Positions 35,567 through 51,408 of a stretch of 64,000 bases of DNA are shown here, piece by piece. Origin of the DNA: Thermococcus stetteri (GTDB lineage Archaea > Methanobacteriota_B > Thermococci > Thermococcales > Thermococcaceae); contig NZ_JAGGKB010000001.1 in NCBI RefSeq assembly GCF_017873335.1, positions 620,001-684,000 on the forward strand. The letters are read 5' to 3'. The notes beneath the pieces are model-generated. The model was not told the DNA's origin and searched no databases. It saw only the letters and a list, made by a program, of their open reading frames with translations. The translations under genes and the position numbers were made by a program. Each line of letters opens with the position of its first letter. Position 1 is the first letter of the stretch.

Positions 35567-38500
35567 TCAAGAGCCAAAGAACTCGTCCAGGCTTATGCCC
35601 TTCCTTTTCTTCTTTTTGGGTTTTTTCTCACTGGTATTATCCATCTTTCCGGCTGTTTTGTCCTGTACATGGCTCTTCTTAGCAGCCGCTTCAATGCTGG
35701 CGATAAGCTTTGTCGTAGTGGAACGCCTTGACTTTGTCTCTTCTTTCTTTTTCGCGGGTTCTCTGCTTCCTCCCAAGGATTTCGAGGTTGAACTTCCAGA
35801 CTTTTTGCCGGCCTTTCCGTTCTTTCCATTGAACTCGTCGAGGTAGCCGTTCCTCCCATTGGAGTGACCCGTCCGTTCCTTGACCATCTTCTCGCAGATG
35901 TCCGCTGAGAAGCCCATGAGGGTCCTCTGCCTCTCCGGAAAGACGTTCTCGAAGAGCGTCTTTATGTCCTTCTCGGTTATGCATATCCTCTGCCTCGTGT
36001 AGTCCTTGACGTTGTACTTCGTAACGAGCATCTTCGCGGTTGGCAGGTACTTCTCTATGGCCCCTTTGCTGACGGTGAGGACTATCTTTCCGCCGCACTT
36101 CGGGCACCTACCGGTTAAGGGCGGCCGCCTGTACTTCGTATTGCACTTTACACATCTGAACTCCTGCCTCGTGAAGCTCCTAAGGTTGCCCCTTAAGTCC
36201 GGAACGAGGTGGGAGTTGATTATCGTCTCGGCCACGTGGTGCTCATCCACGGCCCTTATCCTCTCTGCCAAGGCGAGCTGTCTGGCGACCTTCTCTTCCA
36301 TGTCGCCGAGCTGTTTGTACAGGCTCATCTTCGGGCCAAGACCGATGTCGTCCGTATCGTGGGTGAACTTTATCCCCTCGTACATCTCGGGCTTGTTCAA
36401 GCGGTCCTCAACGCGCTCGATGACCTTCACTTCCTTTGGAGACTTCAGCTCGTAAGTTGCCCTGTAAAACTCGAGCGGATAGTACCTGACCACGTCCATG
36501 TTGTGAACCTCACTGTCAACCTCCCTCGGATCGAGCCTAGTGGTAACAACGAGCGGGGCGTCCATCTTACCGCCGCGCTTTTCTGGGAGGTAATACTTGC
36601 TGAAGTTGAGGAGGGCATCGAGGAGGAGCATTACAGCGTCTTCGTCGCCGTCACAATTGGCTGTAGTAATATTATTACTAATTACTATAGTATGATACTT
36701 AGCTGCACTAAGCGAGTAGACCCACTGGTCGGGAGGTCCAACATACTCAACTCTGCGTACTTTCAACAACACCCCCATTTCTGTGGCCTTGGAGTGTGTT
36801 CTGAAACCATGCGAAGCCCAAGTAGCTAAGACAGAATTCTTGCGCTTGGAGACGAATCCAATAAACTCTATGAACCTCTTCGCTTGAATGCCATATAGAT
36901 TCAATCTATACACAGTCGAGACCGGTACATCGCCACCTTTTCTAGAATGATACTTCTCAACGATATTTCCTCTGCGTGAGTTGGCATTTCTGTCAACCCC
37001 CCAACTGGAGTAGAGACCAAACTTCGATATGAGGAGGGTATCAATGTCCTCAAGCAGTGCGCGATTGACACTGTAAACGGCTATCATGGGCTTTGAAGGA
37101 ACAACGCTTCCATCTCCCTCGAAGTACGCCTTGAGCATCTCTGCAACGGCTTCACGTGGCAGTGTGAAAACAAGAGACGGAACGCGTTTGCTGTACGCGT
37201 TCTTTCCAGTCTTCAGAACTTCCATGAACAGCAGGTAGAGAATGCGTGAGCCAACTGTAACCTTCCCGTCTCCCTCATAGATACCAAAACCGTCTCCGAA
37301 AGCTTCTCTGAGTGCTCTCTTAAGGTCCTCCCTAACCTCTTCATCTGCTATCGAGAAGCTCAGCTGGTAGACGCTTTCGCTCTCCCGTGCATAGCCCTCC
37401 GCAAGATAGTATCCAACGATGCGGAGGAGAGGCTTGAGAGGCACGAACCGCTTGATTCTTACTTTATCGCGCTTAAATCCAAGCCAGCAGGAAGGTACTT
37501 CCTCAATGGATATCCCTTTCTCCGTGAGAACCCTTAGAAGGATGCTCAAAGGTATGGAGTCTCTGCGCAGGTAGTCTTCTTTTACATCAGCCTCAACTGA
37601 GCGGAGCCACTCTGCTATTCCACGAACCATTATCCTATCGTGAAGATGAGCAAACTCCTCTCTGGAGAACTCCTTCAGCAGATCAATGTACTCTGTGTTC
37701 TTTTCTGGAAGCTCCAAATTAGGCACGAGAATCCTATCTCCTTCCCTAACCTCAAAAGCTCTCTTCTCAACGAATTTGCCGTTTTCGTAGACAAGCACTG
37801 GATGATCAACCGTCGTCTCAAAGCTCCTGCCGAGCTCAAGCTCGAACCTTATCATGTGGTCCGTCGATGGAGCCTTTATGACGTCCTCTATATCGGTGAG
37901 AACAACCTTTCCGCTCTCAGGGTCAAATGAATAGACCTTAACGTCCGCCTTCGGCTTCTTCCTCACGTAGACCATGTTTTCGTACCGCTCGTCTTCAAAG
38001 AGGTCGTAGAGTTCCTTAAGGGTTATCCTCTGAGGAACACCGTTAATCTGGACGAGTATCCTTGTATCACCTGGGAAGCAGTTCCTCCTCTTTGCGGCGT
38101 GGTAATACGGATGGGCATAACCAACGAGGACATCGGAGAAGCCGATTATCCTCCCGATGATTCCGGCTGAAGTGTGTGGGGCGAGGCCTATCACGAGGTG
38201 GCCTATGAGATCCTCCATCTTCTCGGCGTTGTAGAAGCGCGGAAGGCCGTAAAACTTCTCGAGGAGATCATCGATGAAGCGCGCCACCTTGAGGAGGTAT
38301 CTCCCAGCCTCGTAGGGCAGAATAACGTCCTGAACCTTCAGCTCGAGTATCTGGTCGTCCCTCTCGAGAGGCCTGCCCTCGAAGTCGTGGGTGTAACCGA
38401 GCTCCCTCAGCTTCTCGACGCTCGTCCCTATCTCCTTAGGCTTGAAGTGAGTTATTGGAGCGTCGGTCGCGTCGAAACGGATCGTGCCATCCTTAAAGAC

Positions 38501-40969
38501 GTAGACGTCGTTTTTCACCCTGAGGAGACCCTTTTCCAGCGGCTCGGCCATCTTGTAGCCGGACGTCATGCCCTTAACGCCCTTGAGCCTGTCTATGCCA
38601 TAAACTTTGACGTTGTCCATGGCCTGCCTTAACAGATCGGCCGGCTTTATTTCCCTCTCCGCGTAGGGCTTGAGCTCAACGTCGCACTTCGGACAGCGGT
38701 AGCCGAAGTCCTTCGCATCGCTCTCCGGATAATCGGCCCCACACTTCGAGCAGTGCCAGAGAAGCTCCTTCCTCGTACCGCAGACGGGACAGAGGTGCTC
38801 CGGGCCAACGTGACCACACTTAGGACACTTGAAGAAGGCTATCTCAACCCTGGCCGTTTTTCCTTCCTCGGCGGCTTTCTTGATGTCCCTGCTCTGGCCG
38901 CCTGCGAGGCCTATCGGGAAGAGAACCTGAACCGGCGGCTTCATCTTTCTCTCCTTGGCCTTCTCGGGCCTTCCCATCCTCGCCCCGATCCAGCTTATCC
39001 CCCTATCCCTGAGCTTTATCCTGTTGTTCTCGTTGATGATGTCGATGACGGTGTGGAACGGCTTCGCCTTGAACTCCCACTCGAGGTTGCCTAGAGGTGT
39101 CAGAAGGGCCGCGCTCCATGGGTACTCAACGACGATGACCTTCCTCTTCTTCTCGATCCTCTCAAGCCTGTGGGGCAGGCCGAGGAGCTCAAGGTAGCGT
39201 TTGATAGTTTTATCGTTCTCGAGGACGACCTTCTTCGCGAAGCGGTTCTTTCTGAACTCACCCCACTCGATTTGGGCATTGAGCAGGGCCTTCTGGAGTT
39301 CTTCGACTTCCTCCGGCTTGAGGGTGTTCCAGTAGAGGGTGTAGTAGGGGTGAAACGGTATGTCGAGAACAGTTGAAAGGTGAATGGCAGTCTCAACATC
39401 TGGCCTAACCCTGAGCGGATCCCTAAGAAGGTTCCACAGGAAATCGGGGTCAACCTCAAGGTATTCAGCCGCTTCCTCAACGGCTTCCCTGTCGTTCTCC
39501 GCGAAGGGTTGAAGTTCGACCTCGTAGAGGTCTTTGACGGCCTGGACTAGCTCTTGAACCCACCACTCTTCTACGTAGTTCGCCGGAAGGAGCGTCTGGT
39601 TGTTCTCGACGAAGTCGCCGAAGTTTACGAGGGCATCGCCAACGTAGAGGATCTCGTCAACCTCGTTCCTGACCTTTAGAGCCGTTTCATAGTCATCTAC
39701 CCTTACCACGCTCCCGTTCTTGAGCCTAACGATCGGACCCTCCACCGTAGTCGCTGGAGTCACGATACAGCCCTTACCAGGCCTTTCCGTCTTCATCTGG
39801 GTACCAATCGCTATGAACTCGTCCAGAATGAGCATCGTTGCAGGATTGACGCTCCAGGTCGCAAAGCCAGAAACCCTTGAGCGGCCGTACCTGAGCCGGA
39901 AGCCGCCGTTAGTCGAAGGCTCGGCGAAGAGAGGCCTTCCCCCGATTATCTCCTTGGTGTACTTTTTGTTGGGAGCGATGTTGGTCCTGAACTTCTCGTA
40001 GAGCTCGTAGTAGAAGCCCTTCTCAACTTTCTCCATCTTTTCCGCAACGCTTTCACTCCCAGAATCTTCGGCCTTTGTCTCTTCTTTCTTTTCCTCTCCA
40101 CCCTTGCCCTTCTCCTTGGCTTCCACGAACTCCTTTATCCAGTCCCAGCCCTCGATTCCCATCTTGTCTATGTACTTCACGAGCTTCTTCGCCTTCTGGA
40201 GGACACCTTCAGCGAGAACTAGTATAGCACCGCCACGGAGATGGTTCGTCTCGACACCAGGGACGTTTCTGTGGGAGACCTCTACCTTATCCGTCTCTTC
40301 ACCGGTTATCTCGATCGGGATGTTCCTCATGGCCAGTCTTACTTCATCTGCTTCAGGGTGGTACTGTAGCCTCGTAACAGCCCTGTGGTAAAGGTCAACC
40401 TCCTCCACCATCCTCTCTATGTGCTTATCACTCGGCTTGAAGCGGTCGAGACCGAGCTTCTTCCTCACGTAGTCACCAACGAGGACGCTCAGGGCCTGAG
40501 CCGTTCCACCGGAACTCCTGATCGGGCCAGCGTAGTAGAGAGCCAAATATTCGCTCCCGTCGGTCCACTCGTTGCGCTTAATTTTAACGTCAGCAATGCC
40601 CTCAAGGGGAGCAGAGACTATGCCCTCCGTCAGGATGGCAAGGGCCGTTCTAACGGCCTGCTCCGCGTACTTCTCCTTGCTCCCGAGATCGCCGAACCTG
40701 CCCTCGATTATCTCATCAACAACCTTCAGGGCCGCTATTTCCTTCCCGTATTCCTTCACGAGCTCCCTTATCCTCTCTGCCACCCCGGGAGGTCCAACGA
40801 GGCTCTCAACACGGCCGGCCATGTCGGTTGCCTGGGGCACCTCAACGTCCAGGCTCGGGTCCTTCCCCTGGGCGCGGGCCTTCCTCGCTATTTCATAGGC
40901 CCGGTCTATCTCGCGCTGGAGTGACTCGAAGTAGGCCTTCATTTCAGGTGAGTACAACTCCTCGCTCAT
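35567..40969 (-). CDS. polC: DNA polymerase D large subunit DP2 with intein
   Basis: 1800 codons; excising the intein leaves ~1325 aa, normal for DP2. It is the catalytic subunit of replicative polymerase PolD, with a double-psi-barrel active site. Two zinc clusters are visible: CPKCGHVGPEHLCPVCG with CSKCGADYP/RCPKC, and VKCNTKYRRPPLTGRCPKC near the C-terminus. The active-site segment CDGDEDAVMLLLDALLNF immediately follows the intein. A long Lys/Ser-rich tail precedes the C-terminal EFFGS region. Start ATG directly follows the DP1 stop, so DP1-DP2 form an operon with orc1. Confidence 0.97.
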   Translation of the reverse strand: MSEELYSPEMKAYFESLQREIDRAYEIARKARAQGKDPSLDVEVPQATDMAGRVESLVGPPGVAERIRELVKEYGKEIAALKVVDEIIEGRFGDLGSKEKYAEQAVRTALAILTEGIVSAPLEGIADVKIKRNEWTDGSEYLALYYAGPIRSSGGTAQALSVLVGDYVRKKLGLDRFKPSDKHIERMVEEVDLYHRAVTRLQYHPEADEVRLAMRNIPIEITGEETDKVEVSHRNVPGVETNHLRGGAILVLAEGVLQKAKKLVKYIDKMGIEGWDWIKEFVEAKEKGKGGEEKKEETKAEDSGSESVAEKMEKVEKGFYYELYEKFRTNIAPNKKYTKEIIGGRPLFAEPSTNGGFRLRYGRSRVSGFATWSVNPATMLILDEFIAIGTQMKTERPGKGCIVTPATTVEGPIVRLKNGSVVRVDDYETALKVRNEVDEILYVGDALVNFGDFVENNQTLLPANYVEEWWVQELVQAVKDLYEVELQPFAENDREAVEEAAEYLEVDPDFLWNLLRDPLRVRPDVETAIHLSTVLDIPFHPYYTLYWNTLKPEEVEELQKALLNAQIEWGEFRKNRFAKKVVLENDKTIKRYLELLGLPHRLERIEKKRKVIVVEYPWSAALLTPLGNLEWEFKAKPFHTVIDIINENNRIKLRDRGISWIGARMGRPEKAKERKMKPPVQVLFPIGLAGGQSRDIKKAAEEGKTARVEIAFFKCPKCGHVGPEHLCPVCGTRKELLWHCSKCGADYPESDAKDFGYRCPKCDVELKPYAEREIKPADLLRQAMDNVKVYGIDRLKGVKGMTSGYKMAEPLEKGLLRVKNDVYVFKDGTIRFDATDAPITHFKPKEIGTSVEKLRELGYTHDFEGRPLERDDQILELKVQDVILPYEAGRYLLKVARFIDDLLEKFYGLPRFYNAEKMEDLIGHLVIGLAPHTSAGIIGRIIGFSDVLVGYAHPYYHAAKRRNCFPGDTRILVQINGVPQRITLKELYDLFEDERYENMVYVRKKPKADVKVYSFDPESGKVVLTDIEDVIKAPSTDHMIRFELELGRSFETTVDHPVLVYENGKFVEKRAFEVREGDRILVPNLELPEKNTEYIDLLKEFSREEFAHLHDRIMVRGIAEWLRSVEADVKEDYLRRDSIPLSILLRVLTEKGISIEEVPSCWLGFKRDKVRIKRFVPLKPLLRIVGYYLAEGYARESESVYQLSFSIADEEVREDLKRALREAFGDGFGIYEGDGKVTVGSRILYLLFMEVLKTGKNAYSKRVPSLVFTLPREAVAEMLKAYFEGDGSVVPSKPMIAVYSVNRALLEDIDTLLISKFGLYSSWGVDRNANSRRGNIVEKYHSRKGGDVPVSTVYRLNLYGIQAKRFIEFIGFVSKRKNSVLATWASHGFRTHSKATEMGVLLKVRRVEYVGPPDQWVYSLSAAKYHTIVISNNITTANCDGDEDAVMLLLDALLNFSKYYLPEKRGGKMDAPLVVTTRLDPREVDSEVHNMDVVRYYPLEFYRATYELKSPKEVKVIERVEDRLNKPEMYEGIKFTHDTDDIGLGPKMSLYKQLGDMEEKVARQLALAERIRAVDEHHVAETIINSHLVPDLRGNLRSFTRQEFRCVKCNTKYRRPPLTGRCPKCGGKIVLTVSKGAIEKYLPTAKMLVTKYNVKDYTRQRICITEKDIKTLFENVFPERQRTLMGFSADICEKMVKERTGHSNGRNGYLDEFNGKNGKAGKKSGSSTSKSLGGSREPAKKKEETKSRRSTTTKLIASIEAAAKKSHVQDKTAGKMDNTSEKKPKKKKRKGISLDEFFGS
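36656..38080 (-). other. Intein in DP2 (475 aa, LAGLIDADG homing endonuclease)
   Basis: Begins with Cys in AKRRN|CFPGDTRILVQING and ends ISNNITTAN before |CDGDEDA, the known intein site of archaeal DP2. Block A (CFPGDTRI), block B (RSFETTVDHPVLVY) and LAGLIDADG motifs (LRIVGYYLAEGY and MLKAYFEGDGSV) are present, so it looks full-sized and mobile-capable. The penultimate residue is Ala instead of the usual His, with final Asn. The last ~20 codons are strongly A/T-ending, unlike the host gene. Confidence 0.93.
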
Positions 40970-43162
40970 TCAAACCCCCTCGCAGAACTGGTCAAACCTA
41001 ACTACGGCCCTCAGACGGGCAGTTTCAACATCTATTATTGGAACCCTAGCGGGAGTCGGGATTATGTTCACCATCTTCTGGAACTCAGTCTGGGCCTGCC
41101 ACGTACCGGTGTTTATGACGAAGACGCCGTTGTATGTCTTATATTCCATAACGTGGACGTGGCCAGCCTGGAAAAGGTCGGGAACGCTCTCGATGACGAG
41201 CGTATCTTCTGGATCGGGCGCTATCGGAACCTTGTTTCCGAAGGTTGGAGCTATGTGCCTGAGCTTCAGAAGCTCCACCATTGCCTCGGCAGGACTGTGG
41301 TGGCTCCTGTTAGGGACGAAATCAACGACGTCCTCGATTCCCCTCCCATGGGCTATGAGGAAGTCTCTGCCGTGGAGCCTTATCACAGCAGGGTTGCTGA
41401 TTATCACCGCGTTCTTGAGCTTGTAGAGCGGCTTCGCATACTCTTCGTAGAAGCCAGGCTGTGGAAGGGCCGTTCTGGCCGCGTCGTGGTTTCCAGGGCC
41501 GATGAACATCGTTATGTGATCCGGAACCTGCTTCAGCAGGTTTGCCAGAGCCTCATACTGGTCGAAGATGTCCGGGATAGCCAGCTCGTTGTACTGGCCG
41601 GGGTAGATGCCGACGCCGTCAACGACATCGCCGCCGAGGATGAGGTACTTAACCCTGCTCACCAGCTCCTCCTCGGTTCTGCTGTTCACTTCGCCGTTGA
41701 GCCACTCGAGGAACTTGATAAAAGCTTCCTCGCAGAACTTGTTGCTGCCAACGTGGATGTCGCTGAGAAGGATGGCGTAGACCTTCTCATCGAGCGGTGG
41801 TTTGGGCCTCTTGAACTTCGGAACGTCCGGCAGGAACACCCTGTTGGCGAAGAATATTCCCTTTCCTGGAGTACCTCTGAAGGCAACAACCGAATCGGGC
41901 ATTATCGTATTGTAGGCTTCCTTTGCACCCTCCTTGTCTGAGCCTATGAAGACCTTGATCCTCCCGGTGGCATCCTCGATCTCAAAGAGATAGCCTTTTC
42001 TCGTCTCGCGCTTCTCGTTGACGAGCCCGATTATCGTGACATCATCTTCGCGGACGTAGCTCAGCTTGGCGATGTCCACTATCGTGCCGATTTCAGGGTT
42101 TTCGCGGAAGATCCTCCGCATCTTCTTAAGCCTGGACTTGAAGTAGCTGGAATAGGCCTGGATTATGACCTCGCCCTCCTTGCTCTGGGCGTTCTTGACC
42201 TTTGGAACCTCGAACTTCACGTTCTTAACGTCAAAGGCAAGCTTCCACTCGTCGGGAATCTCCTTTGCCCTGTAATGGAAGCCCTCCTTTGGGGTTATCA
42301 CGAGGTCGGAATAGGTCGAATAGGCCTTCTCTTCCTCTGGAGTTTCCTCCTCCACGTAGGCTATTGGAACACCGTAGTCACCGTAGACTATCTTCGGCTT
42401 GACGCCGTTGTCGCCGTTCTCGTAGTACTCCTCGGAGTCTTCGTACCCATTCCCACTCCCGTTTTCCACTAGAAGGGACTCATCAGAGAAGCCAGTTTCA
42501 TCGGGAAATTCTCCTTCAGAGGACTCTTCTAGGAGGGTCTCACCTTCAGGAGTTCCAGTGGAAATAAAACTCTCCCCCCCAGAGAAGGCTTCTTCTAAAG
42601 CCTCTGATTCATAATTAGAGCCAAGAAAATCCTCAGATCCTAAGGCATTTCCAGTAGAAATAAAGGCCTCCTCCCCCTCGGAAGGCTGAACAACTTCAGC
42701 ATTATCTTCCACAGAAGACAATAGCTCTGGTTCAGTGTTGATTTCATCCTCCAGTGAAGAGCCTTCAGATGCTAGAGAACTTTCCTCAGCGGCGACAACA
42801 TCTCCAACAGGCGCTGCACTTGGCTCAGCTATAGATTCGGCCCCATCGAGAGAAGCTTCAATGGCCTCAGACCCATCAGATTCAGACTCCAGAGCTGTCT
42901 CCTCGTTAAGTTCTACAGGAGGTTCAGAAGCACCCCTCCCTTGGAATACCGAACTTTCGAGGGCAGCGTTTCCACTGGAAATAATGCCCTTCTCCGCCAG
43001 GAACTCTCTGGCAAGGTTGGAGTCTACAACGAACGTCCCACGGTTTTTGGCGAACTTTATCAGCTCGGCCAGGGTGAATGCCTTCTTGTAGTGGTCTGCG
43101 AGCAGATAATACGCGGACGGCGTGATAAGGTAGTTGTTCTTAAGGAGGTCCTCCACCAGCAT
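40970..43162 (-). CDS. polB: DNA polymerase D small subunit DP1
   Basis: 730 aa. The C-terminal half has an OB fold (IGTIVDIAKLSYVREDDVTI) and a calcineurin-like phosphoesterase with all metal motifs: LLSDIHVGSN, LGGDVVDGVG, IGPGNHDAART, IAHGRGIEDV, QAGHVHVME. This is the 3'-5' proofreading exonuclease. The N-terminal helical domain is followed by ~200 residues of acidic Ser/Glu-rich disorder with repeats such as EAFISTGNALGSED and ESFISTGTPEGE. Those repeats are encoded by origin-box-like DNA (42552-42580, 42648-42679, 42968-42982). ATG overlaps the orc1 stop. Confidence 0.96.
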   Translation of the reverse strand: MLVEDLLKNNYLITPSAYYLLADHYKKAFTLAELIKFAKNRGTFVVDSNLAREFLAEKGIISSGNAALESSVFQGRGASEPPVELNEETALESESDGSEAIEASLDGAESIAEPSAAPVGDVVAAEESSLASEGSSLEDEINTEPELLSSVEDNAEVVQPSEGEEAFISTGNALGSEDFLGSNYESEALEEAFSGGESFISTGTPEGETLLEESSEGEFPDETGFSDESLLVENGSGNGYEDSEEYYENGDNGVKPKIVYGDYGVPIAYVEEETPEEEKAYSTYSDLVITPKEGFHYRAKEIPDEWKLAFDVKNVKFEVPKVKNAQSKEGEVIIQAYSSYFKSRLKKMRRIFRENPEIGTIVDIAKLSYVREDDVTIIGLVNEKRETRKGYLFEIEDATGRIKVFIGSDKEGAKEAYNTIMPDSVVAFRGTPGKGIFFANRVFLPDVPKFKRPKPPLDEKVYAILLSDIHVGSNKFCEEAFIKFLEWLNGEVNSRTEEELVSRVKYLILGGDVVDGVGIYPGQYNELAIPDIFDQYEALANLLKQVPDHITMFIGPGNHDAARTALPQPGFYEEYAKPLYKLKNAVIISNPAVIRLHGRDFLIAHGRGIEDVVDFVPNRSHHSPAEAMVELLKLRHIAPTFGNKVPIAPDPEDTLVIESVPDLFQAGHVHVMEYKTYNGVFVINTGTWQAQTEFQKMVNIIPTPARVPIIDVETARLRAVVRFDQFCEGV
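42552..42580 (+). repeat. ORB-like box inside the DP1 coding sequence
   Basis: GTTCCAGTGGAAAT followed by AAAACTCT matches 21 of the first 22 bases of the oriC ORB at 45174, but the following G6 is C7 here. On the coding strand it encodes SFISTGTP in the disordered part of DP1. Two weaker copies lie at 42648-42679 (TTTCCAGTAGAAAT) and 42968-42982 (GTTTCCACTGGAAAT). Confidence 0.75.
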
Positions 43163-44409
43163 CAGAACAACCTCCTCTGGCGGGAGAGGCTCAGGGTGAG
43201 CAGCGGGCGAACCTGCTCGTCGTGGCGGTAGATGTTCTTCACCATATACGGAGTCACGTTGAGCCTTATCTCCTTTGTCCTCCCGTAGCGGCCCTTGCTG
43301 ACGACCTTGGCGTTGATTATGCCGAGCATGTCGAGTTCGTTGATCAGATCGCTCACGCGCCTCTGGGTTAGAGGTTCAACGTCAAGGCTGTCGCAGAGCA
43401 TCTTGTAAATTGAGTAGACCTCACCGGTGTTAGCGGGAAGCTCGCCGTTTTCGTCGAGCATGACTATCGCATAGAGGAGGACCTTCGAGTGGAGAGGAAG
43501 GGTTTTTATGACCTCCTCCATGGTGTCCTGCTCAATCTTTTCCTGGGCCTTCCAGACGTGCCTTTCGGTTACCTTGCTGGCCCCCTCGCGCTCCGCTATC
43601 TCACCGGCAACCCTCAGAAGATCGAGGGCCCTCCTCGCGTCTCCGTGCTCTCTGGCGGCGAGGGCTGCACAGAGGGGAACAACGGCATCGTCCAGCACAC
43701 CTTCATAAAACGCCTCCCTGGCACGCTGCATGAGGATGTCCCTGAGCTGGTTCGCGTCGTATGGGGGAAAGACTACCTCCTCTTCGCTCAGGCTGGAGAG
43801 GACGCGTGCATCCAGGTACTCCTTGAACTTGAGGTCGTTGGAAATCCCAATGATGCTCACCTTCGCTTTGCTAAGTTCGCTGTTGATCCTCGTCAGAGAA
43901 TACAGGATGTCATCACCGCTCTTCTTGATGAGCTTGTCGATCTCGTCGAGGACTATTATAACGAAGCGCTCTTTGGCATCTATAACATCCTTGAGCTTCG
44001 CGTAGACCTCATCGGTGGGCCAGCCGACGAGGGGAACCTCGATACCGCTCTCTTCCTTGAAGTGGTTTACAATCCTTGCGAGAACGCGGTAGTGGGTGTC
44101 AATTATTTCACAGTTGATGTATATGACCTCAACGGGTATGTTGTACTTCTGGGATATCTTCTTCAGCTCTTCGGTGACAAACTTGACAGTTACGGTTTTA
44201 CCGGTTCCAGTTTTACCGTACACAAAAACATTAGAAGGCGTCTCACCGCGGAGAACAGGGACGAGAATGTGGGCTAGATCGTCTATCTGCTTGTGCCTGT
44301 GTGGAAGCTCCTTTGGAGTATAGCTGTGCCTAAGCACTTCCTTGTTCTTGAATATCTTCCTGGCATGGAGGTACTTCTCGAATATTGAGCTCAGGTAGTC
44401 GTCGTCCAT
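43162..44409 (-). CDS. cdc6: Origin recognition protein Orc1/Cdc6
   Basis: 415 aa AAA+ ATPase that binds ORB boxes and loads MCM. Walker A FVYGKTGTGKTVTVKF, Walker B VIIVLDEIDKLIK, sensor-1 VSIIGISNDLKF, sensor-2 HGDARRALDLLR, then a winged-helix domain (PLTQRRVSDLINELDMLGII). I choose ATG 44409; the GTG at 44424 would add five residues. Transcribed away from oriC, with DP1 and DP2 downstream. Confidence 0.96.
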   Translation of the reverse strand: MDDDYLSSIFEKYLHARKIFKNKEVLRHSYTPKELPHRHKQIDDLAHILVPVLRGETPSNVFVYGKTGTGKTVTVKFVTEELKKISQKYNIPVEVIYINCEIIDTHYRVLARIVNHFKEESGIEVPLVGWPTDEVYAKLKDVIDAKERFVIIVLDEIDKLIKKSGDDILYSLTRINSELSKAKVSIIGISNDLKFKEYLDARVLSSLSEEEVVFPPYDANQLRDILMQRAREAFYEGVLDDAVVPLCAALAAREHGDARRALDLLRVAGEIAEREGASKVTERHVWKAQEKIEQDTMEEVIKTLPLHSKVLLYAIVMLDENGELPANTGEVYSIYKMLCDSLDVEPLTQRRVSDLINELDMLGIINAKVVSKGRYGRTKEIRLNVTPYMVKNIYRHDEQVRPLLTLSLSRQRRLF

Positions 44410-44893
44410 CGTCCCACTCTCCACTTGAAATCATACTCATAGCGCCCCATTGTGACAATATGAAAAACTATCTATCGGCGAATCACCAATATCTTTCCAG
44501 TTATTTTAACTTTATGGCACCAGCTAGTGACAAATATTGAATATTCGGGGGATATTCCACCGGAACCAGCGGATACACAGGAAGGCATACCTATGTGTAG
44601 GTCTTAGGTTTATATGGGTTGTTGAACATGGAGCTGTTAAAGGTCTCCACGTGAAGTTCCATTTCTAACTTGGGCAAAAGAACATCTCCAGAGGAAGCGA
44701 GGAACAAGTAATGATCAAACATGTACACACAGATTTACATTAGGAAAACAAAACATCGTTAGGGCATATTATTTCCACTGAAAGGTAAATGGACAAAAAT
44801 AGACATGAAAATGAGAACAATAATGGACAGGAAAGAACATTTTGAGAAAACAGTTATGTTTTCAGAATGACAAAAAGTAAACAGTTTTGTAGT

Positions 44894-44920
44894 CCCCCAG
44901 AGTTCTGTTTCCAGTGGAGG
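44894..44920 (-). promoter_or_regulatory. Origin recognition box (ORB), minus orientation
   Basis: On the minus strand: core TCCACTGGAAACAGAACTCT followed by a G5 string. Matches the pyrococcal ORB layout (dyad, linker, G-string). Left flank of the AT-rich unwinding region. Confidence 0.88.
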
Positions 44921-45173: not shown

Positions 45174-45201
45174 GTTCCAGTGGAAATGAAACTCTGGGGG
45201 G
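45174..45201 (+). promoter_or_regulatory. Origin recognition box (ORB), plus orientation
   Basis: GTTCCAGTGGAAAT GAAACTCT then GGGGGG; full ORB with G-string. Inverted relative to 44894-44920. Confidence 0.9.
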
Positions 45202-45224
45202 TCTTTTCGATAACCATCGAAAAA

Positions 45225-45247
45225 GAGCTCTGTTTCCACTGGAAAAC
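45225..45247 (-). promoter_or_regulatory. ORB without G-string
   Basis: Minus strand reads GTTTTCCAGTGGAAACAGAG then CTC: the dyad and linker of an ORB, with no G-string after it. A further half-site CCCAGTGG lies at 45253-45260. Confidence 0.75.
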
Positions 45248-46528: not shown

Positions 46529-47590
46529 ATGGCCCGCAAGAAGAAGGTTGAGGATGAGGTCAAAGAGCTTGATGAGTTTGAAGAGCTTGATGTTGAAGAG
46601 TCACTTTCATCAGCTAAACAGGAAAAGCCGGAGAGAAAGATCGCTACCCTCGAGGATCTTCCCGGAGTCGGTCCAGCCACCGCTGAAAAGCTCCGCGAGG
46701 CCGGTTACGACACGATAGAGGCAATAGCGGTTGCTTCGCCGCTGGAGCTTAAGGAAATAGCGGGGATAAGCGAAGGGGCCGCTCTCAAGATAATCCAGGC
46801 CGCGAGGGAGGCAGCCAACATTGGAACCTTCATGCGCGCCGACGAGTACATGAAGAAGAGGACGACAATAGGGAAGATTTCCACTGGAAGCAAAGCCCTC
46901 GACAAGCTCCTGGGTGGTGGTATTGAAACCCAGGCCATCACAGAGGTATTCGGCGAATTCGGCAGTGGAAAGACCCAGCTCGCCCACACACTCGCGGTTA
47001 TGGTTCAGAAGCCGCCCGAAGAGGGTGGCCTCGGCGGTTCAGTGATCTGGATAGACACTGAGAACACCTTCAGGCCGGAGAGAATAAGGCAGATAGCTGA
47101 AAACCGCGGCCTTGATCCGGAGGAAACGCTGAAGAACATATACGTCGCGAGGGCGTTCAACAGCAACCACCAGATGCTCCTCGTTGAGAAGGCCGAGGAG
47201 ATAATCAAGGAGAAGGCCGAGAGTGACAGGCCAGTAAAGCTCCTCGTCGTTGACTCCCTCATGGCCCACTTCAGGAGTGAGTACGTCGGCAGGGGGACCC
47301 TCGCTGAGAGGCAGCAGAAGCTGGCCAAGCACCTTGCCGATCTCCACAGGCTCGCTGACCTCTACGACATAGCGGTCTTCGTCACCAACCAGGTTCAGGC
47401 CAAGCCCGATGCCTTCTTCGGCGACCCAACGAGGCCCGTCGGTGGACACATACTCGCTCACAGCGCCACGCTGAGGGTCTACCTCAGGAAGGGCAAGGCC
47501 GGAAAGAGGGTCGCCAGGCTTATAGACAGCCCGCACCTGCCTGAGGGAGAGGCCGTCTTCAGGATAACCGAGAAGGGCGTTGAGGATTAA
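46529..47590 (+). CDS. radA: DNA recombinase RadA
   Basis: 353 aa archaeal Rad51/RecA homolog for strand exchange. N-terminal helix-hairpin-helix ([20 protein letters not shown]), linker [20 protein letters not shown], Walker [17 protein letters not shown], Walker [17 protein letters not shown]2 region [23 protein letters not shown] 46529 lies four bases after GGTGAT; the ATG two codons earlier overlaps that site. No intein, unlike some Pyrococcus RadA. A mini-ORB-like TTTCCACTGGAA occurs inside (46878-46889). Confidence 0.97.
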
Positions 47591-51338: not shown

Positions 51339-51392
51339 GCTCTCACCCCGAAGAGATTTAGTTTCAAAAGGTTATTAAACTTTCGGAGTTTG

Positions 51393-51408
51393 GTTTCCAC
51401 TGGAAAGG
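51393..51408. promoter_or_regulatory. Mini-ORB-like palindrome at the MTAP promoter
   Basis: GTTTCCACTGGAAAGG lies just before the TATA-like CTTATATTAT (51413-51422) of the MTAP gene. Same dyad as the oriC boxes but no G-string. A second copy CTCCAGTGGAAAT is in the MTAP coding sequence at 51550-51562. Confidence 0.5.

Follow-up and report, generated by a model that had tools for sequence, protein, structure and literature searches.

The window, a 64,000-nucleotide stretch of Thermococcus stetteri DNA, contains the genes for the two PolD subunits DP2 and DP1, followed by cdc6/orc1, the predicted initiator gene. Beyond cdc6, oriC occupies the intergenic stretch as far as 45330 and is followed by a K+ channel gene and then by radA. 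The features discussed here are collected in Table 1. The DP2 product is 1800 residues long and, as read by eye only, seems to bear an intein (CFPGDTRILVQINGVPQRI ... TIVISNNITTAN, then CDGDEDAVML).

Table 1. Genes and origin-recognition box (ORB) elements at the oriC-dp1 locus (window coordinates).
Feature	Position	Strand	Remarks
DP2 gene	35567-40969	-	
DP1 gene (PolD small subunit), containing boxes A-D	40970-43162	-	Matches NCBIfam NF003117 (above cut-off) and Pfam PF22317
dp1 box D, decayed mini-ORB	42463-42474	-	TTCTAGTGGAAA on the minus strand; one mismatch; different frame
dp1 box A, ORB-like element with C-string	42552-42580	+	GTTCCAGTGGAAATAAAACTCT, then C-string; coding strand GGGGGGAGAGTTTTATTTCCACTGGAAC; peptide GESFISTGT; exact core
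dp1 box B, mini-ORB	42648-42669	+	TTCCAGTAGAAA; one mismatch; encodes FISTGN; box A is 96 bp away
dp1 box C, exact mini-ORB	42969-42990	-	Start of linker; peptide IISSGN; limited to some clades
cdc6/orc1, predicted ORB-binding initiator	43162-44424	-	NCBIfam NF001625 above cut-off; Cdc6_C winged helix
oriC mini-ORB	44772-44783	-	One mismatch
oriC ORB with G-string	44894-44919	-	Core with one mismatch
oriC main ORB	45174-45201	+	GTTCCAGTGGAAATGAAACTCTGGGGGG; aligned in 29 species
oriC inverted ORB partner	45224-45245	-	Without G-string; 58 bp from main ORB
radA exact mini-ORB core	46878-46889	-	KISTGS codons; repeat-family member 46878-46899

A search for repeats, made without prompting, grouped three segments of DP1 (42552-42573, 42648-42669 and 42969-42990) with one in oriC (45174-45195) and one in radA (46878-46899), confirming that the three ORB-like elements noticed in DP1 by an earlier sequence-only reading were real. 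As that reading had described, box A was identical to the oriC main ORB at 21 of 22 bases (95%) and then ran into a C-string (42574-42580) at the place of the G-string of the main ORB (45196-45201), CCCCCC in the one and GGGGGG in the other. The mini-ORB dyad core, TTCCASTGGAAA, was exact in boxes A and C and had one mismatch in box B and in box D, a fourth and weaker box that had been overlooked. The AAACTC extension found 3' of the core in full ORBs was present in box A (AAAACTCT). However, since a C-string replaces the G-string after this extension, in T. stetteri and likewise in most relatives, box A was classed from its sequence as a mini-ORB with an ORB-like extension and not as a full ORB. 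Among relatives, the boxes lying 5' of cdc6 can have C-strings too, and the string of the third oriC box can be mixed. The dp1 boxes share the core and, in box A, the AAACTC extension with the ORBs and mini-ORBs of archaeal origins, but differ from them in lying within coding sequence and in the inverted string of box A.

Several details of the earlier description needed adjustment. The boxes had been placed 1.5-2.3 kb from oriC; they were found 1.5-2.0 kb from its edge and 2.2-2.7 kb from the main ORB (~45175). Two of the three encode the repeated ISTG motif ascribed to all of them, while the third (42969) encodes ISSG and is situated not in the disordered, acidic part of DP1 but where the linker begins, immediately beyond residues 3-56, which form the folded N-terminal domain (Pfam PolB_N). 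The peptide encoded at box D is LLVE in the window and LPVE in relatives, where the core is exact. In the solved T. kodakarensis PolD chains (6knb), IISSG leads directly to IVYGDYG, so that the deposited sequence lacks the linker, as would suit a flexible region.

The dp1 cluster is not new. In 2007, Matsunaga and colleagues reportedly showed by ChIP-chip and gel retardation that Cdc6/Orc1 binds both the oriC and the dp1 clusters of P. abyssi, within about 5 kb. According to PMC2643942, ORB and mini-ORB repeats in dp1 of Pyrococcus and other Thermococcales were first reported in that study (Matsunaga et al. 2007, NAR 35:3214), and reviews describe Orc1 bound in vivo at the P. abyssi oriC and at additional regions. 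T. stetteri, with such repeats within its DP1 gene, has the same boxes and the same gene order, and adds another species. As far as could be found, the codon test, the 96-bp spacing, the frame test and the relocation case described below are additions to the 2007 report. We consider it highly probable from the sequence comparisons that the dp1 boxes are authentic Orc1/Cdc6 recognition elements that together make up an auxiliary cluster for binding the initiator in cis to oriC. The proposal that they are extra Orc1 sites extending the origin, made from the sequence of the window, agrees in this respect with the published interpretation for Thermococcales, the sites in T. stetteri being predicted ones.

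The distribution of the boxes was examined across sampled genera of the family. They were present in all eight genomes of g12, which we take to be Pyrococcus (G068, presumably P. abyssi and carrying homologous dp1 boxes, G070, presumably P. horikoshii, and G076, presumably P. yayanosii), in three genomes of g14 (among its members G110, presumably T. barophilus) and in one of g15. The dp1 gene of G011 (L031), judged to be T. kodakarensis, had four exact cores. In g11, dp1 still adjoins oriC and the boxes all have one mismatch. The exception was g13, the genus to which we assign T. litoralis (G101) and T. sibiricus (G102). In 6/6 g13 species no box with up to one mismatch was found in dp1, the best matches in its 5' 850 nt having two to three mismatches, and DP1 had no [IV]STG motif, although its linker was still long and acidic.

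In each of the five complete g13 genomes, 0.35-0.6 Mb separates cdc6-dp1 from radA, and at L150, L151 and L152 (G101, G097 and G104) a rearrangement was seen to separate oriC-radA from cdc6-dp1-dp2. The oriC-type ORB cluster of g13 adjoins radA, with G-string ORBs about 265 bp apart (G097, G101 and G104, at sequence level). Because g13 is nested among box-bearing genera on the midpoint-rooted Cdc6 tree, the pattern is most simply explained by loss of the dp1 boxes in g13. On the side away from radA, the g13 oriC is now flanked by a PIN-domain gene, whose coding sequence contained an extended ORB (GAGTTTNNTTTCCACTGGAA) in 5/5 species; three of them had another exact core at a distance of 709 bp. 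Orthologues of this gene in other genera, where it is located elsewhere, had no site with up to one mismatch in 9/9 cases (two of the nine were translated partly, with the codons of the extended box covered in both). The extended ORB entailed a change from leucine to tryptophan (FHL to FHW). The dp1 genes that adjoin oriC thus have boxes, those of the single lineage with a distant dp1 have none, and selection for the boxes apparently acts through nearness to oriC. The g13 split, with loss from dp1 and gain in the PIN-domain gene, is a natural experiment pointing to coding-embedded Orc1 boxes as a possible positional requirement of the Thermococcales origin, albeit a single event in one genus (n = 1 loss, n = 1 gain) and not a statistical sample. 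Whether any gene flanking oriC evolves coding ORBs, even at the cost of an amino acid, and loses them once moved away, we regard as an even bet.

The relocation also bears on how such a cluster would act. In bacteria, the DnaA-box clusters datA and DARS bind the initiator outside the oriC core and far from oriC. The dp1 cluster resembles them as an initiator-binding cluster outside the core origin, but the initiator is different and proximity to oriC seems to be required for the dp1 cluster. If it were a datA-like sink, it would limit free Orc1 instead of helping the origin. The number of dp1 boxes (two to five) rivals that of oriC, as a sink might require, and in Haloarcula hispanica an ORB-rich region, likewise an initiator-box cluster beside the core origin, is described as inhibiting oriC2 (PMC5333045); that species belongs to a different archaeal class. 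A sink, however, need not adjoin oriC, and the boxes have gone from the distant dp1 and are present in the new oriC neighbor, which argues for a role in cis. We therefore consider titration unlikely, and the cis dependence favors a flanking cluster that helps initiation, through loading or looping, over one that restrains it.

A role in transcription was also considered, in which Orc1 bound to dp1 would be a roadblock or attenuator coupling PolD expression to the level of the initiator. The cdc6-dp1-dp2 operon is real in T. kodakarensis (PMC5663688), and Orc1 autoregulation is plausible, given that 19 of 36 species have an ORB core immediately 5' of the start of cdc6 and that in g13 one lies next to the TATA-like element of this gene. 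On the other hand, cdc6 is still directly before dp1 in g13, where the dp1 boxes have disappeared even though the box at the cdc6 promoter survives in most of these species, and the ORB that was gained lies in the unrelated PIN-domain gene. We therefore judge control of PolD expression through the dp1 boxes to be quite improbable. Since the g13 promoter box persists without the dp1 cluster, autoregulation from the cdc6 5' end is a separate matter from the dp1 boxes, and itself possible on sequence grounds. The cdc6-start cores, some with a C-string, were located at +1258 to +1266 from the DP1 start (L037-L065); the copy in the window, at about 44418, is decayed.

In many Thermococcus genomes, extended ORB-like elements were also observed at the promoter or leader of three particular genes. 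One was located at the promoter of the MTA phosphorylase gene, beside its TATA-like element, and another at the promoter or leader of a malic-enzyme-like gene (named by eye). The third lay about 27 bp before the ATG of the tryptophanyl-tRNA synthetase gene and was kept even where trpS is 77-133 kb from oriC. Extended ORB-like elements (GAGTTNNNTTTCCASTGGAA) were found in the window at 51386-51406 and at G000:C1:685975-685994 and G000:C1:606481-606500. These promoter elements may represent a small Orc1 regulon.

The sequence-only reading had named synonymous variation of the boxes in relatives as the finding that would count against them. We compared DP1 in 36 Thermococcus species (the window and L031-L065) and found the boxes to be nearly invariant at synonymous sites, in a linker that has diverged both in sequence and in length (151-259 residues). 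The [IV]STG motifs of the 36 genes were encoded by TCC ACT GGA in 77 of 80 instances, the exceptions being three TCT, against an expected share of 1.2% from linker codon use. The preceding codon always ended in TT (ATT or GTT), unlike linker Ile and Val codons generally. The core of box A was kept in 36/36 species, its AGAGTT extension was strongly conserved in relatives, and the box B homologue had TCC ACT GGA in 34/36. On a tree of the catalytic part of DP1, no changes were needed in the codons for Thr and Gly in either main box, compared with means of 11.5 and 11.3 changes (minimum, 7 and 8) in 29 invariant Thr/Gly columns elsewhere in DP1. The Ser codons had undergone one or two changes, but the Ser controls comprised just five columns, two of them hardly changing either, so the codon argument rests on Thr and Gly. 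Conservation in the dp1 cluster was accordingly found at the DNA rather than the peptide level.

The boxes had further been proposed to be DNA-level insertions tolerated by a flexible linker. The two main boxes were exactly 32 codons (96 bp) apart in 35/36 species, and the fixed position and vertical inheritance of these old elements argue against a mobile or duplicated insertion; only the outer boxes (C, D and, in one clade, an additional box located 31 codons upstream) have been gained or lost individually. Rigid helical phasing was rejected as a general rule, because spacings of about 78, 87, 90, 93, 96 and 99 bp all occur, though 96 bp dominates.

The frozen codons, a linker box in a second frame and a contrast with radA together show that selection in dp1 acts on the DNA itself. 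The second-frame box reads CTT CCA GTG GAA, is translated as LPVE and is separated by about 77-99 bp from the last ISTG box. The last ISTG box itself keeps the AGAGTT extension of the oriC ORB (TTCCAGTGGAAATGAAACTCTGGGGGG) whether the peptide there is GES, GKS, GGS or GQS, and is accompanied by a G-run on the coding strand, which is the C-string in ORB orientation. In radA, which encodes the same ISTG peptide, 7 of 23 ISTG/VSTG copies differ synonymously. The radA KISTGS motif is coded as an exact mini-ORB, with NTT TCC ACT GGA kept in 16 of the 25 species in which it was detected.

These results leave very little likelihood that ISTG is a peptide motif of the PolD linker binding a partner, with an incidental resemblance to ORBs in the DNA. 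Such a motif would account for the recurrence of [IV]STG at 32-residue spacing in most Thermococcales. It would not account for the frozen synonymous codons, the translation of another linker box as LPVE or the synonymous variability in radA, nor for a g13 DP1 that lacks ISTG and is otherwise a normal PolD subunit; as a main explanation it is refuted by the codon test. The ISTG peptide is instead a by-product of selection on the DNA, because one box is read in the other frame and both boxes and ISTG are lacking in g13, whose dp1 is distant from oriC.

Matches to the core were far more frequent at the locus than expected. With up to two mismatches, the window contained 57 matches compared with 12.9 expected, a number reached in 0/100 shuffles. 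The whole genome (2.03 Mb) contained only nine distinct exact cores, all at C1:545781 to 685995, that is, in 140 kb around oriC (665 kb), and a reversed control pattern gave two matches genome-wide. Across 18 genomes of the genus, all complete or nearly so, the density of exact cores was highest within oriC, at 1222 per Mb. It was 694 per Mb between -5 and -1.8 kb (largely dp1) and, towards radA, 516 per Mb between +0.2 and +3 kb, 178 at +3 to +8 kb and about 50 at +8 to +30 kb, compared with a background of 0.32 per Mb beyond 200 kb from oriC; P values for these bins are not independent, since related species share sites by descent. The cores are thus clustered around the oriC-cdc6 locus, hundreds to thousands of times denser than elsewhere, where they are rare. 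That the boxes are chance matches or a passively inherited, functionless repeat is next to impossible, having only their shared descent in its favor, with chance ruled out by the genome-wide counts and passive inheritance contradicted by Thr/Gly codons with zero synonymous drift in a highly diverged linker.

The field of exact cores on the radA side was one-sided in the 18 genomes, reaching ~30 kb, well past the 5-kb region. It was partly accounted for by the MTAP and trpS sites and by coding coincidences. The latter apparently include distal cores that lie in the genes for two proteins, a long one with VSTG and another with LPVER.

Returning to the auxiliary cluster, we propose that its boxes, mini-ORBs and one ORB-like element with an inverted string, would have been placed where the DP1 protein tolerates them. 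In T. stetteri they would most likely be bound by Orc1/Cdc6 from the neighboring gene of the same operon. Bound oriC and flanking genes could then form one nucleoprotein region of roughly 5 kb that would concentrate or position the initiator at the origin, and the cluster may aid initiation through higher local Orc1 occupancy or looping to oriC. Counting against this model are the C-string of box A where the oriC ORB has a G-string, the g11 dp1, which adjoins oriC yet has only one-mismatch boxes, and the single occurrence of the relocation. The benefit of the cluster would also be conditional, because cdc6 and 640 bp of oriC were deleted from T. kodakarensis with no growth defect (PMC5663688). 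The ORB and mini-ORBs of oriC were lost in the published deletion, whereas TK1902 (dp1), and with it the dp1 cluster, was retained.

The predicted Orc1 boxes are nearly letter-perfect in an essential polymerase gene across dozens of related species, despite the dispensability of cdc6 and oriC in the laboratory (PMC5663688). This implies that initiation from the origin is important under natural conditions and that the origin extends beyond the intergenic oriC targeted in deletion work. The relocation in the T. litoralis-like lineage suggests a testable cis rule for initiator boxes flanking an origin.
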